Source: Methanothrix harundinacea (GTDB lineage: Archaea; Halobacteriota; Methanosarcinia; Methanotrichales; Methanotrichaceae). Taken from it: a stretch of DNA of 39,479 nt. Below are positions 486-39,479 of the stretch, one piece after another. The position numbers were made by a program, and so were the translations under genes. The stretch's first letter is position 1. The number at the start of each line of letters is the position of its first letter. The notes under the pieces are model-generated. The model saw nothing but the letters and a program-made list of their open reading frames with translations. It ran no database searches and was not told the DNA's origin. Location: NCBI GenBank assembly GCA_001509375.1, contig LGFT01000013.1, forward strand, positions 1 through 39,479, written 5' to 3'.

Positions 486-3400
486 ATGAAGTTCATAGAT
501 AGATTAAACCGCCTCAAGGCGCGCCGCGACAGCAATGGCTTCCTGCGCCAGTATAGCTATGAGCAGCCGCTGCGATCTGAGCTGTTCAGCATCGACCAAC
601 TGGAGCGGCATGCCAGAGCGCTGGCAGAACGACATGAGATCGATCCAATTCCCGGCAAGGACCTGCTTCTGCCAAGGCTGGCTGAGAACGAGGAGATCCT
701 GCTACAGGCAAACGAGCTGCTTACAGAGGCAGTAGCATCGAATCTGCGGATTGCGCCAGCTTCGGAGTGGCTACTCGATAACTTCTACAAGATAGAAGAA
801 CAGATTCGCATTGCCAGGCGGCATCTGCCCAAGGGTTACAGCAAAGAGCTGCCGCATCTGCTCAAAGGGCCGCTGGCCGGTTATCCGCGCGTTTATGACC
901 TCGCCAAGGAACTGGTCCTTCATACCGATGGTCGGGTGGATGCAGAAAGCCTGAAGCGCTTCGTAGATGCGTATCAAACGGTCAGTGTGCTTGACCTTGG
1001 CGAGCTTTGGGCAGTTGCGATCATGCTCCGCCTGGCGCTGATAGAGAACCTACGGCGCATATCTCTCTCCATCGCCAAGAGCAAGACCGACCGCAACCTG
1101 GCAGGATACTGGGCAGATAAGGTAATCTTGACAGCAGAGACCGATCCCAAGAGAATGATCGTTGTGGTGGCCGATCTGGCCAGCTCAGAACCTCCAATGT
1201 CCAGCGCCTTTGTTGCTGAATTTGCCCGAAGGTTGGAAGGACAGAGCTTTGCTCTGGCTCTCCCGCTAACATGGATTGATCAACGACTATCTGAAATGGG
1301 AAAGACCACTGCGCAAATGGTCCAGGAAGATATCCAGCAAGAGGCTGCAGATAAAGTCTCTATAGGCAACAACATTGGAAGCTTCCGCTTTCTTGAGTCG
1401 ACTGATTGGCGAAAATTTGTAGAAGGGACTAGCGCTGTCGAGAGGGTGCTGCACATGGACCCTGCAGGCATCTACAGCCAGATGGACTTCGCCACCCGGG
1501 ATCGTTACCGCCACACTGTTGAGTGGGTCGCAAGGTGCAGCTTGTTATCTGAGCAAGAGGTTGCACTCAGGGCAATAGAACTGGCCCAGACAATTGTTGA
1601 TGCTGGGGACGGTGAAGATCGGAGTGCACATGTTGGGTTCTACCTGATAGATAGGGGAGTACCTGAACTGGAGAGGGCTGCCGAGATGAGCTGGTCGCTG
1701 ATGGACTCCCTTGGCAATACCATTCACCGGTTCCCACTGCTCAGCTATGTCGGCACGATAACGCTGGTCACTGCAACAATTTCTGCCGCAGTGCTGGCTC
1801 AGGCATACAAGCTTGGGTCGAGCGGATGGACGCTGATCTTGGCTTCCATCCTTCTGGTGCTCTGCATGAGCAGTCCTGCGGTCGGCCTCATAAACTGGCT
1901 GGCGACTCAGCTGATCAGGCCTCATGCTCTCCCCAGAATGGACTTCTCATCAGGCATTCCTCAAGAGCTGCGAACGCTGGTGGTAGTACCTTCTGTTCTG
2001 AACAGCCCCGAGAAAGTCGAGGATCTGCTGGAGGGGATTGAGGTTCGGTACCTGGCAAATCGAGATATAAACCTTTACTTCGGCCTTCTGACGGATCTCC
2101 GCGACGCAGAGCAGGAGGTAATGCCCGAGGATGAGCATCTGTTGCTCATGGCTCGTCAGGGGATCGAGGCTCTGAACGAAAAGTACCACGATAGGATCTT
2201 CTTCCTCTTCCCCCGCCAGCGCAGATGGAACCCTGAAGATAGGATCTGGAGGGGCTATGAGCGCAAGCGGGGCATACTCGGTGAGCTCAACTCACTGCTG
2301 CGAGGGGGGTCTGGGGATAGCTTCTCTTCTATTGCGGGCGACGTATCGATCCTGCCTGAAGTGAAGTACGTCATCACGGTCGACGAAGATACCAGGATGC
2401 CCTATGACTCTGCCAGGCTGCTCGTTGAGACCCTTGCTCACCCTCTGAACCGCCCCCGGTACGACGAGAACAAGCGGTATGTCACCGAGGGCTACAGCAT
2501 ACTCCACCCACGCCTGAGCGCAGGCTTGCCTGAGGCAGACAGGTCGAGGTTTGTGGCCCTCTTCGGAGGGGAGCCAGGCATCGATCCTTACACGCGTGAA
2601 GTCTCTGATGTCTACCAGGACATCTTCGGTGAAGGCTCCTTTACCGGCAAGGGGATCTACGACGTCGATGCTTTCTTGGGTTCTTTGGAAGGACGCTTTC
2701 CAGATAACCTAATTCTCAGCCACGATCTGCTAGAGGGAAGCTATGCCAGAGCTGCGCTGGTCAGCGATGTGCAGTTCTATGAGGATTATCCCTACCGCTA
2801 CACCTCTGATGTTAGACGACGGCACAGGTGGATCAGGGGGGACTGGCAGATTGCCAGCTGGCTCTTGTCGCGCGTGCCAGGCCCGGGAGGCCTGGTCTTT
2901 GATAATCCCATCTCTGGCTTATCCAAATGGAAGATCCTCGACAACCTCAGGCGCAGCCTGGTGACCCCAGCCCAGATTTTATTGTTGTTCCTCGGATGGT
3001 TGGTGCTGTTGCAGCCATGGTTCTGGACCACTGTGGTAGTAGGGGCTGTTCTAACACCACCGGTGCTTGCTTGCATCCGAGTGATCTTGCGAAAGGCTGC
3101 CGACCTGCCCATTGATCAGCACCTGTACTCAGCTGGAAGATCGATAGTCAGATACCTAGCTCAGGCAGGGCTCAGCCTGACTTTTATGCCGTATGAAGCC
3201 TTTTTCAGCCTGGATGCAGTTGTGCGCACAGGCGGACGATTGCTATTCACACATAAGCGGCTACTGGAATGGAACCCGGCGAGCAATTCCAATGGTAGTG
3301 GGCGCAGTGATTTAGTGGGGTTCTACCAGTCGATGTGGATCGCTCCGGCTGTAGCCATTGCCATAACCTCTTATCTGGAGTTTCAGCGTCCTGATTTGCT

Positions 3401-32109: not shown

Positions 32110-32203
32110 CCTTGAGTTGAAGACCGGCAAGGGATTTATCGGTTTTGGAGGGGACGGGCTGGAGGGGAGAGGGGATAAATAGCATCTTGCACCTCTCCCG
32201 TCC
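32110..32203. promoter_or_regulatory. Divergent promoter between the DHH protein and Trm56 genes
   Basis: 94 bp. GGATAAATAG at about 32172-32181 is a TATA element for the rightward gene, about 27 bp before its ATG, implying a leaderless or nearly leaderless mRNA. On the other strand CGATAAATCCC (about 32133-32143) is a weaker TATA candidate about 28 bp before the DHH gene. Confidence 0.5.
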
Positions 32204-32737
32204 ATGCGAGTTGCTGTCTTGCGGCTTGGCCACCGGCCAGAGCGGGACAAGAGGATCACCACCCACGTGGGCCTCGTGGCCCGAGCCTTCGGGGCCGAGG
32301 AGATGCTCCTGGCGGGAAGGGACGAGAAGCTGGTGGCAGGCCTTGAAGACGTCGCCGAGAGGTGGGGCGGCGACTTTCGGGTGAGGTCCGTTTTGAGCTG
32401 GAGGGGGGAGGCGAGGCGGTGGAAAGATGTCGGCGGCAAAATAGTCCACCTCACCATGTACGGGACGCCCCTCTCGGAGGCGATCGGAGAGATCCGCCTT
32501 TCTGAGGCGGTGATGGTGGTAGTGGGAGCCGAGAAGGTCCCTCCCGAGATCTACGAGATGGCGGACTGGAACGTGGGCGTCGGAAACCAGCCCCACTCGG
32601 AGGTGGCGGCCCTGGCGGTCTTTCTGGACAGGCTCTGGGGAGGCGAAGAGCTGAATAGGGAGTTTGAAGGGAGGATCGAGGTCGTCCCCAGCCCTCGATA
32701 CAAAACCGTCATCGAAAGGCGAGAAGATGAGGGATGA
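32204..32737 (+). CDS. trm56: tRNA (cytidine(56)-2'-O)-methyltransferase, 177 aa
   Basis: Archaeal SPOUT methyltransferase that methylates the ribose of C56 in the T-loop of tRNA using SAM. The N-terminus has the diagnostic LRLGHRPERDKRITTHVGLVARAFGA. The knot region carries MVVVGAEKVPPEIYEMADWNVGVGNQPHSEVAALAVFLDR, which includes the SAM-binding loops. Length is standard for the family. It is probably leaderless (TATA about 27 bp upstream). It overlaps the next gene by 11 bp, suggesting cotranscription. Confidence 0.95.
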   Translation: MRVAVLRLGHRPERDKRITTHVGLVARAFGAEEMLLAGRDEKLVAGLEDVAERWGGDFRVRSVLSWRGEARRWKDVGGKIVHLTMYGTPLSEAIGEIRLSEAVMVVVGAEKVPPEIYEMADWNVGVGNQPHSEVAALAVFLDRLWGGEELNREFEGRIEVVPSPRYKTVIERREDEG

Positions 32738-34476: not shown

Positions 34477-35607
34477 TCAGCTGTAAATTCCCGACCCCAG
34501 GACGATCACCTTTGTCCCCCTAAGGTCGAGCTTTGAGCCCTGACCTGAGCCTATCTGGACTGATGTAGAGCTGAACTTGTAGCCGCTGGCATCCGCAGTT
34601 ATTGAGTGCCATCCCGGGCTCAAGGAGACCCAAAAGCCGCCATCATCGTCCGCCGATACGGAGAAGAGGCCGTCGATCCGAACCCTCGCCGCCGGGATGC
34701 CGGTGCCGGTTTTGTCGGTGACCTTCCCCTCCAGCCAGCCGTATTCATCCTCATAAGTCCCGGCGGGATAAAATGCATCTCCCGTTTGGCTTCCCATCAC
34801 AACTCCCGCCGCCGAGACGGTCCCGGTCCAGACCCTGGCCGTAGTCGTGGTGAAGCTGAACCCTTCAAGCTCCGCGGTCACCGAATAGGTTCCCGAGGGC
34901 ACGTCCATCCCGTAGTAGCCTAGGGAGTTCGTGACGGTGGTGAAGATCCCGCCTTCCGTTCCAGAGATCCTGGCCCTCGCTCCAGAGATCCCGTTCCCAT
35001 AATAATCGATCACCCTGCCCACCAGGCCGTATGTGGTCGGATACCCGGCGGGATTTACAGCCACCTCCACGCCGTTGCTCCATCCGCTCACGTTGAACTG
35101 ATAATAGTGGGCCTCCAAAGTCTCAGCATGCCGGTCCAGCCTGTACCATCCCGGGCTGACAAAGCCCGAGGAGATGACCCTCCTCCCCCCGTCATAAAGG
35201 TCGAAGGTCCCCCATCTGGAGACGTAGAGCCAGAGGGTGTAGGGGGCTCCGAGGCTGACCTGCCCGCTGGTGACGAGGAGGCCGCCCGATTGGAGATAGA
35301 GCTGGTTTGGTCTCAGCACCTCGTCCCCAAGAGATAGGGCCGTATCGGGAGCGAAGGGGTTGGCGGAGAGCAGCCTAGGCGAATCGTAGCGATTGGGAGA
35401 GTAGGGGTCCCAGGCGGCTCTTCCGGGAGTATAGTACGACTCCTGGCCTGGACCATAGGGGTCCCATTCGGGCCTATCTGCTGCGAAGGGGTTTGGAAGA
35501 TATTCTATCTCATCGCCGTCGTCAGCCGCAAGACCGTTCGAGCTGAAGGCCGACGAATAGACCAATCCAAATAATATGCAAAGTGATACTCGGCAGATCA
35601 ATCTCAA
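34477..35607 (-). CDS. Secreted surface protein with two carboxypeptidase-regulatory-like domains, about 376 aa
   Basis: A signal-peptide-like start (RLICRVSLCILFGLVYSSAFSSNGLA) leads into a Pro/Tyr-rich segment with repeated WDPYxP (about 45-80). A beta-rich region follows (LYLQSGGLLVTSGQVSLGAPYTLWLYVSRWGTFDLYDGG split by turns), and then two beta-sandwich domains of the carboxypeptidase regulatory type: YGLVGRVIDYYGNGISGARARI and GWLEGKVTDKTGTGIPAARVRI, each ending in a SITA/SVTA-ExxGY/F-like strand. No membrane anchor is seen at the C-terminus. The start is uncertain: the frame stays open upstream to 35871, but a TTG at 35607 with GGGTGG eight bases before it gives a proper signal peptide. 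Divergent from the S-layer gene, so probably part of the envelope. Confidence 0.7.
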   Translation of the reverse strand: MRLICRVSLCILFGLVYSSAFSSNGLAADDGDEIEYLPNPFAADRPEWDPYGPGQESYYTPGRAAWDPYSPNRYDSPRLLSANPFAPDTALSLGDEVLRPNQLYLQSGGLLVTSGQVSLGAPYTLWLYVSRWGTFDLYDGGRRVISSGFVSPGWYRLDRHAETLEAHYYQFNVSGWSNGVEVAVNPAGYPTTYGLVGRVIDYYGNGISGARARISGTEGGIFTTVTNSLGYYGMDVPSGTYSVTAELEGFSFTTTTARVWTGTVSAAGVVMGSQTGDAFYPAGTYEDEYGWLEGKVTDKTGTGIPAARVRIDGLFSVSADDDGGFWVSLSPGWHSITADASGYKFSSTSVQIGSGQGSKLDLRGTKVIVLGSGIYS

Positions 35608-36013
35608 AGCTTCAACCACCCCATAATGAAAAGCGCTCGTCGGCGACTTAAAGATTGCGGAAGGGAGAGCGACCGCCAAAATACACCCCGAAGAGTTCAA
35701 GACCCTGATCCGATGGCCAAAATAGCCAAAATGTTTAAGTATATTCAATTTCAACCGAAAAAACTGAAATATCAGAACAATTCGAATAAACCCCATCGAA
35801 TGACGAATGGGTTGATAAAGAGCTGGAACGATTTGTACATTGGGATCGAGGAGAGTTCCATGGTCGTTCAAGAAATCATCTATTCATGAAAACGCTTAAC
35901 TCAGAACAGATTAATCGGACAATACCGCGGATCAAAAACCTGCAGCAGATAACTTATATATAGAACTGACAAATGACCATTATATTAAAGTCGATATAGG
36001 TTGGAGGAGATCC
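35608..36013. promoter_or_regulatory. Divergent envelope-gene promoter region
   Basis: About 400 bp, AT-rich. For the S-layer gene: a strong TATA CTTATATATAG at 35953-35963, a second AT-rich ATTATATTAAAG at 35980-35991, and a ribosome site GGAGGAGAT ending two bases before the ATG at 36014. For the leftward gene: a TATA-like TATACTTAAA (minus strand, near 35733-35742), giving about 100 nt of leader. An 87-codon plus-strand frame (35626-35889) looks fortuitous. Confidence 0.55.
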
Positions 36014-38883
36014 ATGAACTACCTTAGGGCTGGAGGACTGCTTTGCCTGCTCATCTTCGTCATGGTGGCAGTTCTGCCAATGGGGGCGTTGGCACAAGAT
36101 GATGCTCCAGATGATTCGGTCCTCTCGGGGGCTGAATCCTCTAGCGGTGCCGATGCTGAAGACACGAACGCTGCAGATGAACCTGAAATGCCACCAGCTG
36201 GAGATGAACCTGAAATGCCACCAGCTGGAGATGAACCTGAACTGCCACGGCCAACGAGACCTCAGCTGAAGAGACCGAAGAGGATGAGGAGGGGGCTGAA
36301 GAGGAAGAGGAGGAAGAAGAGCTCTCCACCACCGATAGGATCTGGCGCGAGGGCAAAAATCCGGCCGACTACACCTGGAACCCCCAGACCTTCTCGGGAT
36401 TCTTCTACGATCTCGATGACGACGTGGGAACTGAGACCCTCACCGTCCACCTGATGGAGTCGGGCGACGGATATGATCGGACCATCGAAGATGGGGACCT
36501 GGAGTACGTGACCGAAGCCGATTCGATAAGGTTCGAGTTCGACGACTGGGGAGAATATCAGGTCATCGGCTTCATGGCTCAGAAGTACTTCGCTGGATAC
36601 ATGGGGGCCGATCGCGATATCGTCAGCAAGGATATCAGCCTCCTGGATGAAGAGGAGCTCCGCCAGGTTCTGATAGACGACGACGAGGAGTACACCGTCG
36701 ACACCGGTTCTGTCCTGCCCCTGGAAGAGGGTTACGAGTTCAGGATCAAGGAGATCGACCTGGACGGGAACAAGGTCTGGCTCTCCCTCGCTAAGGATGG
36801 CGAGGAGATAGACAGCAAGGTGGTTGACCCGACGAATCTCAGATCTTCAACCTACAAGTACGAGATCGACCTGAGCGGTGAAGATCTGCCGCTGGTGATG
36901 CTCCACGTATCGAACATATTCAGAGGCGCCGAGTCCAGCCTCGTGACCGTAGACGGCATATTCCAGATCTCCGACAGCTACACCACCGTCGCCAGCGGTG
37001 ACAAGTACGGAGATATGGAGGTAGACTCGATATCCGGAGACACCATCAGAATGACCAACGACAACTCCATCACCTTGCGGAAGGGAAAGACCGTACCGGT
37101 GATGGGGGACGTCAGCTTCCTCGTGGGCGACTCCGACGAGCTCCGGTTCGGGCCGACGGTGAAGAGGACGGGCAATTACGAGATCAGGGGAACGATCGTC
37201 GACCCGGCAGAATACGAGAAGTTCACCTGGACCCCTTACAACTTTGAGGGCTTCTACTACGACATCGACGACGACGTCGGGACCGAGGAGCTCGAGGCCA
37301 GGTTCACCGGAGACAAGATCGACGACGGAGACCTCAGATACAAGACCGTGCCCCAATCTGTGAGGTTCGAGTATGACCGCTGGGGCAGCTACAACGTCAT
37401 AGGCTTTTTGGCTGAGAAGTACTTCGCTGGATACACTGACGAGACCGATTTCACAGATGAGTTCAGCGTCCTGAACGAGGAGGAGCTGAGAAAGGTCCTG
37501 ATCGATGACGACGAGTCTTATACGGTTCGGAGCGGCGCCACCTTCCCGCTTAAAGAGGGTTACGAGCTTCGGATAAAGGAAGTAGATCTCGACGGAAACA
37601 AGGTCTATCTCTCCATCACCAAAGACGGCGATGAGGTCGATAGCAAGGTCGTCGAGCCCGGAAGCGACGTCTCGAGCTCCACCTTCACCCTAGACGAGGA
37701 GATCGGAAGCGAGGACGTTCCCATAATCGCGATCCACGTCCAGAGCGTCTTCCGGGGAAGGGAGGAGGACCTGGCCACCATCGAGGGGATCTTCCAGGTA
37801 TCTGACGAGCCTCGATCCGTCGAGGAAGGCGAGACCTACGGCAAGATGGAGATCGACAGCATCTCTGACGGCGGAATCGAGATGGTGAACGACGGCTCCT
37901 TCAGCCTCGGCAAAGGAAAGAGCATCACCATCATGGAGAACATGTTGTTCAAGGTATCCGACAGCGATAGGAGGCTTGTTGTCCCCGTCGTCGAGGTCGA
38001 GCAGGAGCTTGAGCCCATGAGGATCGACATCCCCGAGGTGACGGTGGGGACTGCGGCCGAGCTTTTGGTGACCTCTGAAGGGGAGCCTGTGATAGGCGCC
38101 CTCATCACCATCAACGGCGATGAAGTTGGGACCACCGATGCTGACGGCATATACCTCTACTCGCCAACGTTGTCGGGCAGCTTCGACATAGAGGCGAAGA
38201 AGGACGGGTACACTGAAGTCAAGGGAGTCCTCGTCGTGAGCGAGATCCGGGAGGAGAGGTTCCTCGCCGTCACCTCGCCCCAAGAGGTGATGAAGGGGGA
38301 GAGCTTCGTAGTCAAGGTCACCATAGGCCTCGACCAGAGGCCCGTGGAGAGAGCTGATGTCACCTTTGACGATGCCAGCATCGGTGCCACCGACAGCCTC
38401 GGCACCATATCCTACGCCTCGGACGCGGTGGGCTCTCACACCATAACGGCCTCCAAAGAGGGGTTGGAGAGCGGCTCAAGGAAGATCTTGGTCGTAACCC
38501 CGATCGAGATAACGGGCATCGAGATGGACGAGACCACCAGGGCCGAAAAGACGGTCAAGATAACCGCCAACTCCGCGAACCGGGGATCCGTCAGCGACAC
38601 CACCAGCGTGGCTTTGAAGGTCAACGGGAACCTCCAGGCCACCGAGAACCTGACCGTCGGAGCTGGTGAGACGGGCTCTCTGACCTTCGAGTACAAGCCC
38701 GAGGAGCCCGGCCTGTACACCGTGGAGGTCGACGGAATTCAGAGGACTCTGACGGTGGAGGAGAAGAGCAACTCCGGCATGATCGCCGGGATTCTGGTGC
38801 TTTTGCTCCTCATCGGAGGGGGAGCTTACCTCTACTCGACCGGCAAGCTGAACGAGATTCTGGGGCAGATCAAGAACCGCTGA
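36014..38883 (+). CDS. S-layer protein with two DUF1608-type domains, interrupted by an apparent -1 frameshift
   Basis: Major envelope protein of the Methanosarcina/Methanothrix type. Frame A (36014 to about 36247) gives a signal peptide (GLLCLLIFVMVAVLPMGALA) and an acidic Pro-rich linker with DEPEMPPAG repeats. Frame B, open from 36241 to 38883, gives an acidic Glu-rich linker, then two homologous S-layer domains (about 36360-36990 and 37200-37830). Both carry FYxDxDDDVGTE, KYFAGY, VLIDDDExYTV and DLDGNKV.LS. Next come beta-sandwich domains (VTVGTAAELLVTSEG; SPQEVMKGESFVVKV; a CARDB-like end) and a C-terminal membrane anchor (MIAGILVLLLLIGGGAYLY). After 36247 frame A turns strongly basic while frame B stays acidic, so one base appears missing at about 36248-36249. 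A GTG at 36424 is not a credible start, since domain 1 begins earlier. Sequencing error, a disabled allele or frameshifting are possible. Confidence 0.88.
36176..36247 (+). repeat. 27-bp tandem repeat (2.7 copies) in the S-layer linker
   Basis: Two exact copies of a 27-bp unit encoding DEPEMPPAG (36176-36202, 36203-36229) and an 18-bp third partial copy with one change (DEPELP). The unit is a multiple of three, so copy-number change alone keeps the frame. The apparent frameshift follows directly. Confidence 0.9.
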
Positions 38884-39254: not shown

Positions 39255-39479
39255 CTACTCCTCGCCCTGAAGGGCGGAGCTTTTAGCTTTTGGCAGAGAC
39301 TGTAGCCCCAGTCTCAGAATGTTTATTGCTGCATTCTCGTCACGGTCCATGACCAGCCCGCATTGAGGACATTCATGGATCCGCTCCGATAGCGACTTCG
39401 GAACTTTTAGACCGCACCTGGAACATAGCTGACTTGTGTTCCTGGGATCGACTAGAACCACTATCGAACCGGCACTCTC
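39255..39479 (-). CDS. tnpB: TnpB (IS200/IS605 family RNA-guided nuclease), C-terminal part, cut by window edge
   Basis: The minus strand is open from the window end. Visible: VDPRNTSQLCSRCG, then ECPQCG, forming the four-cysteine zinc ribbon, and DRDENAAINIL carrying the last RuvC Asp. This is the standard C-terminus of TnpB, the transposon-encoded nuclease guided by RNA from the element's right end. The frame continues to the last base, so an internal Met at 39461 is not the start. The tail (SSALQGEE) is encoded by the right-end hairpin. Whether a tnpA accompanies it lies outside the window. Confidence 0.93.
   Translation of the reverse strand, partial: ESAGSIVVLVDPRNTSQLCSRCGLKVPKSLSERIHECPQCGLVMDRDENAAINILRLGLQSLPKAKSSALQGEE
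39263..39276 (-). mobile_element. Right-end hairpin of the IS200/IS605-type element
   Basis: CGCCCTTCAGGGCG, a perfect inverted repeat overlapping the last tnpB codons. GC-rich hairpins of this sort at the tnpB 3' end are typical of the right end of these elements, which is also where the guide RNA is made. The exact cleavage site was not determined. Confidence 0.6.

Follow-up and report, generated by a model that had tools for sequence, protein, structure and literature searches.

The window, a stretch of 39,479 nucleotides from Methanothrix harundinacea, is contig C5 of an assembly (G000) comprising 118 contigs and 2.38 Mb. It carries, away from the contig ends, an S-layer gene which as assembled is split over two frames, the signal peptide and the start of a linker lying in one and the rest in the other. 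The gene is preceded by a leader (35954..36009, + strand) that is conserved in the alignment of congeners and holds a TATA-like stretch and a GGAGGAG ribosome-binding-like site, roles that we read from the sequence. The upstream frame, ORF1 (36014..36454, +; 146 aa), encodes the signal peptide, the N-terminal part of an acidic linker and an out-of-frame tail rich in Lys and Arg, and matched no family in PF and TIGR profile searches. Its signal peptide (MNYLRAGG...GALAQ; 36014..36097, +) was recognised by eye and has an N-terminus conserved among congeners. A 27-nt in-frame repeat encoding the unit DEPEMPPAG follows in three copies, the last degenerate (36170..36250, +), and the frame-switch zone (36241..36256, +) lies at the end of this array, where the conserved linker block of the congeners is absent. 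The downstream open frame, ORF2 (36241..38883, +), contains the rest of the acidic linker, the S-layer domains, C-terminal domains and a membrane helix; the last stop upstream of it is at 36238-36240, and its first ATG/GTG/TTG codon is a GTG at 36424.

Two neighbours were also observed. A divergent gene (34477-35871, -) contains two carboxypeptidase-regulatory-like stretches, of the same family as the weak, below-cut-off CarboxypepD_reg-like matches in the C-terminal domains of ORF2. In addition, the C-terminal part of a TnpB-like gene (39255-39479, -) is cut by the contig end.

Profile searches placed ORF2 among the PF07752/TIGR01567 S-layer proteins of Methanosarcinia, with two stretches for each profile, both well above the curated cut-offs (PF07752, 607.8 bits against 30; TIGR01567, 407.4 bits against 121.9). 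The first duplication domain covers 36334..37200 (+), approximate limits of which the N-terminal one derives from an alignment with the orthologue in the near-complete genome G010 that starts at 36337, and the second covers 37207..37962 (+; PF07752, ORF2 residues 262-513). A hydrophobic C-terminal helix, read by eye, occupies 38779..38844 (+). This anchor is in frame with the domains in the assembled sequence, and the signal peptide is not. The gene itself belongs to a known kind: its orthologues in Methanotrichaceae encode a conserved S-layer-family protein with two domains, secreted and anchored in the membrane. The first-pass annotation had reported the same division between ORF1 and ORF2, directly after 27-bp repeats, together with an upstream frame that turns basic while the other reads acidic, and these observations hold. 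Directly past the repeats, 15 of 32 residues in the ORF1 frame are Lys or Arg and none is Asp or Glu; in the ORF2 frame, 17 of 33 are Asp or Glu and only one is Lys or Arg.

The relatives carry the gene in one piece. Among 29 orthologue loci inspected, the window's own not counted, 28 have signal peptide, linker and domains in a common frame, and in the remaining one (L031) the contig starts inside the linker. This answers one check that the first-pass annotation had proposed, a comparison with the S-layer genes of related species. At the level of genomes, a near-full-length match (at least residues 17-811) was found in 44 of 50 members of the family, the present one included; the other six gave partial or paralogue matches, several of them at contig ends. 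The open frame around the match is 977-1195 aa long in the 43 other genomes, compared with 880 in the window. Orthologues in G008, G010 and G046 have the same domain order and are 86, 75 and 55% identical over the 819 aa of ORF2; congener orthologues also share the leader. In contrast to the window gene, those three are continuous, and their linkers are longer than its 81 aa.

It is in the linker that the window gene departs from its relatives. All seven congeners whose gene start is present have a linker of 136-190 aa with a DAPM..DAP block; an eighth (G014) was left out because its sequence starts inside the gene. The window linker amounts to 50 + 31 aa over the two frames, and the block occurs in none of the window's six frames. 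Nor was the lost block found elsewhere in the genome, in a search run without a positive control. The DNA alignment with congeners has a gap at the frame switch, within a low-complexity linker whose alignment is uncertain, and each of the two window frames, taken separately, matches the orthologue on its side of the junction. The shortest linker measured, 92 aa, belongs to another genus of the family (L017). Across the loci compared (L010-L038), the stretch between signal peptide and domains is hypervariable between species in length and repeat unit, and the domains are conserved.

The first-pass annotation had explained the split by a single missing base. Compared with seven congeners, the gene lacks the conserved linker block at the switch, so what was lost is probably a longer segment, of a length not divisible by three. 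Such a loss would account for the short linker and the frame shift at once; one base lost from a naturally short linker, a possible alternative, would need two events. Outside the linker, the 819 codons of ORF2 contain no stop, and raw nonsynonymous/synonymous counts with three outgroups gave 0.64-0.75 for the window branch against 0.53-0.66 for the branch of its sister G008. Together these results suggest that ORF2 has undergone no long-standing decay. The window-branch ratio nevertheless exceeded that of the sister with two of the three outgroups, which we counted against an assembly artefact; the counts would be compatible with a very recent inactivation, without demonstrating one.

The window gene has relatives within its own genome, as a search for paralogues, likewise proposed in the first-pass annotation, revealed. 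Open frames of 639, 630 and 899 aa were found on contigs C66, C62 and C114. A 12-row tree joined the window gene to its G008, G010 and G046 orthologues (100/100); the Mthe_0677-type genes and the paralogues of its own genome fell outside this group. The Mthe_0677-type dominant S-layer gene shares the domain family and an acidic, repeat-bearing linker with the window gene, but its linker follows the domains and it ends in a PGF-CTERM anchor. In Methanothrix thermoacetophila, the expression table of PMC10470525, as far as available, gives Mthe_0677 304-392 times the median, far above Mthe_0149 (17-30 times) and Mthe_1177 (4-5 times); the available text ranks MspA first in expression among surface genes, yet the values in its table row are lower. 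The orthologue in G046 (137.6-140.1 kb) is probably Mthe_0148/0149, with both the positional match and the species deduced by us. The modest expression of Mthe_0149, the presumed orthologue, means that the window paralogue need not be the "essential and abundant" envelope protein that the first-pass annotation took it for, and this premise is weakened. The only solved relative that we found is MA0829 of Methanosarcina (SlmA1; PDB 3U2G/3U2H), whose family is PF07752 (DUF1608 in older papers) or TIGR01567. According to the accessible portion of PMC3361143, this protein has 671 aa and a 60-residue linker after its domains; its signal peptide, its tandem pair of S-layer duplication domains and its C-terminal membrane helix recur in the window gene. 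The window gene differs from it in the long acidic linker before the domains, the extra C-terminal domains and the two frames of the assembled sequence.

The base-level quality of the assembly was examined by setting 471,566 bases of it (the window and up to the first 20 kb of 40 of the 118 contigs) against the initial 800 kb of G010. This yielded 72 best matches at 60% identity or more, and in 60 of them at least half of the changes fell at third codon positions. Within these 60 coding-like frames of the 472-kb sample, no internal frameshift other than that of the window gene was found on the side of the present assembly; the sample did contain one further deletion that destroys genes, at tsr3/valS. 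A first pass of 68 rows had flagged 14 as multi-frame or interrupted by stops and four as partial; apart from the window gene and tsr3, these rows were opposite-strand (shadow) frames, assigned from codon-position counts, stops lying upstream of the probable start or at the final residues, differing start sites and a change of frame in the G010 copy. In a second pass of 63 matches, 14 rows had unaligned ends or gaps: five end within a few bases of the edge of a compared stretch, one (q33779) diverges over the final 16 residues, and the remaining ones repeat the cases just listed. A secreted-looking gene, continuous here (L123:8682-9745), changes frame in G010 (C2, about 553.1-554.2 kb). A second frameshift, suspected near 32150 of the window, was discarded, its upstream piece being the shadow of a + strand ORF at 32204-32737. 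A proneness of the assembly to base errors was likewise rejected as the general cause, given the absence of other internal frameshifts on its side; within the sample, point errors are few, and the weakness lies in missing segments.

Three further loci of the same assembly appear to lack such segments. On C62 (1-474; L103), the contig start truncates an Mthe_0677-type gene, which continues through an acidic Pro/Glu repeat into a short unrelated tail and then the next gene. Its local alignment with G008 resumes about a dozen bases before the start of that next gene, and the tail shows, by eye only, further likeness to the next gene's leader. The anchor of this gene, PGF-CTERM in the G010 copy, is present in all eight other congeners and absent from the whole of the present genome in a search that had a positive control. 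On C58 (1-888; L104), an S-layer paralogue that begins at the contig edge lacks about 100 residues inside a domain, between the FAGY and IDGIWQIS motifs, relative to other domain copies; with no orthologue in one piece for comparison, this case is weaker evidence. Hints of a local frame change were also observed in this paralogue.

The third case lies on C35, at about 3178-3190 (L174), where some 350 bp present in G010 are gone from the stretch that separates tsr3 from the divergent valS. Tsr3 has lost its first ~77 residues, with the 5' half of its gene, and valS has lost its start; the first in-frame ATG/GTG/TTG codon of valS lies 63 codons after the preceding stop and beyond the HIGH motif. 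Both identifications were above cut-off (NF009687 and TIGR00422 for valS, PF04034 for the Tsr3 piece). No other valS was found in the genome, the other three matches being 32-38% identical. The valS gene is essential, and loss of its start, if real, should be lethal. The C35 junction is thus very probably unreal and likely a misassembly, which indicates that this assembly drops segments.

Four explanations of the split were weighed against these results. Programmed -1 ribosomal frameshifting in the linker could join the two frames: the shift is towards -1, the frames overlap from 36241 to 36454, and the mechanism is known in archaea from a Sulfolobus fucosidase, for which the available text of PMC8211752 describes a downstream structure in addition to the slippery heptamer X-XXY-YYZ. 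However, between 36194 and 36454 the ORF1 frame contains no X XXY YYZ heptamer, and upstream of all three four-base runs that fall at codon boundaries (36292, 36355 and 36382) the conserved residues of the other frame have already begun. A frame switch was seen at none of the 29 orthologue loci, and none of the 28 with a whole N-terminus needs a shift. Our literature search found no report of programmed frameshifting in archaeal S-layer genes. On-off phase variation through slippage of the repeat array would fit the position of the tandem repeat directly before the switch. Yet the unit is in frame, and because 27 bp are nine codons, gain or loss of whole units keeps the frame and cannot switch the gene; moreover, the longest single-base runs in ORF1 are of five bases. 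Both mechanisms are unlikely, phase variation being very improbable and programmed frameshifting having next to no probability. Expression control by frameshifting next to the repeat, as proposed in the first-pass annotation, therefore finds no backing in a gene that is read in one frame by its relatives, has no slippery heptamer and contains a repeat of whole codons.

A real and recent deletion in the linker deserves more attention. It would have inactivated a secondary S-layer-family gene in this strain or in part of the population, with other paralogues forming the layer. Such an event is easy to imagine in a linker whose length and repeats vary freely between species, the genome holds the additional S-layer paralogues described above, and loss of a paralogue may be tolerable, considering the gap between Mthe_0149 and Mthe_0677 in the available expression data (PMC10470525). 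Against it stand the near-full-length conservation across the family, the lack of decay throughout ORF2, and, within the same assembly, both the lethal-looking deletion at tsr3/valS and the damage to a dominant-type S-layer gene. On balance we regard this reading as doubtful. The inactive allele with another copy elsewhere, suggested in the first-pass annotation, is supported in that paralogues do exist, but they fall outside the group of the window gene and some of them look damaged. A broader version, in which deletions are real and frequent in the S-layer-family genes of this archaeon, leaving shed or silent surface proteins in part of the population, appears distinctly improbable; two of the gaps (window and C62) lie at acidic repeat linkers and one (C58) lies inside a domain.

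We consider it likely that the frame split is an assembly artefact in which a repeat-rich segment of the linker was dropped. The living organism would then possess one continuous gene, leading from the signal peptide through a long, repeat-rich acidic linker and two S-layer domains to the C-terminal anchor; part of the hypervariable linker would have gone missing from the assembly where the 27-bp repeats end, and a lost length that is not a multiple of three would have put the two halves in different frames. The two frames, the missing block, the continuous relatives and the missing segments elsewhere, one of them lethal-looking, were observed directly; an artefactual origin of the window gap, as of the other gaps of this assembly, is the probable interpretation. 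Error, one of the options in the first-pass annotation, is accordingly the best supported, with a dropped linker segment favoured over a single miscalled base. Some results were counted against this explanation. The damage to several S-layer genes within one assembly could also reflect a real instability of these genes. The idea that the gene generally sits on short, badly assembled contigs was rejected (mean quantile 0.43, KS p 0.46, in 26 assemblies including the present one and leaving out the near-complete G010, G013, G015 and G046), and assembly of the locus is thus not a general difficulty. In addition, no feature pointing to a specific misjoin was found at the junction. A literature search on misassembly, tandem repeats and frameshifts in metagenome-assembled genomes returned only work on a worm genome.

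These findings call for caution with draft genomes, where the dropping of a repeat segment can split a gene; a deletion at another locus of the assembly that looks lethal makes a good internal control. Should the deletions be real after all, the variability of the S-layer in Methanothrix would become a testable question, and frequent deletions in its S-layer-family genes would amount to a repeat-driven diversification of the archaeal coat.
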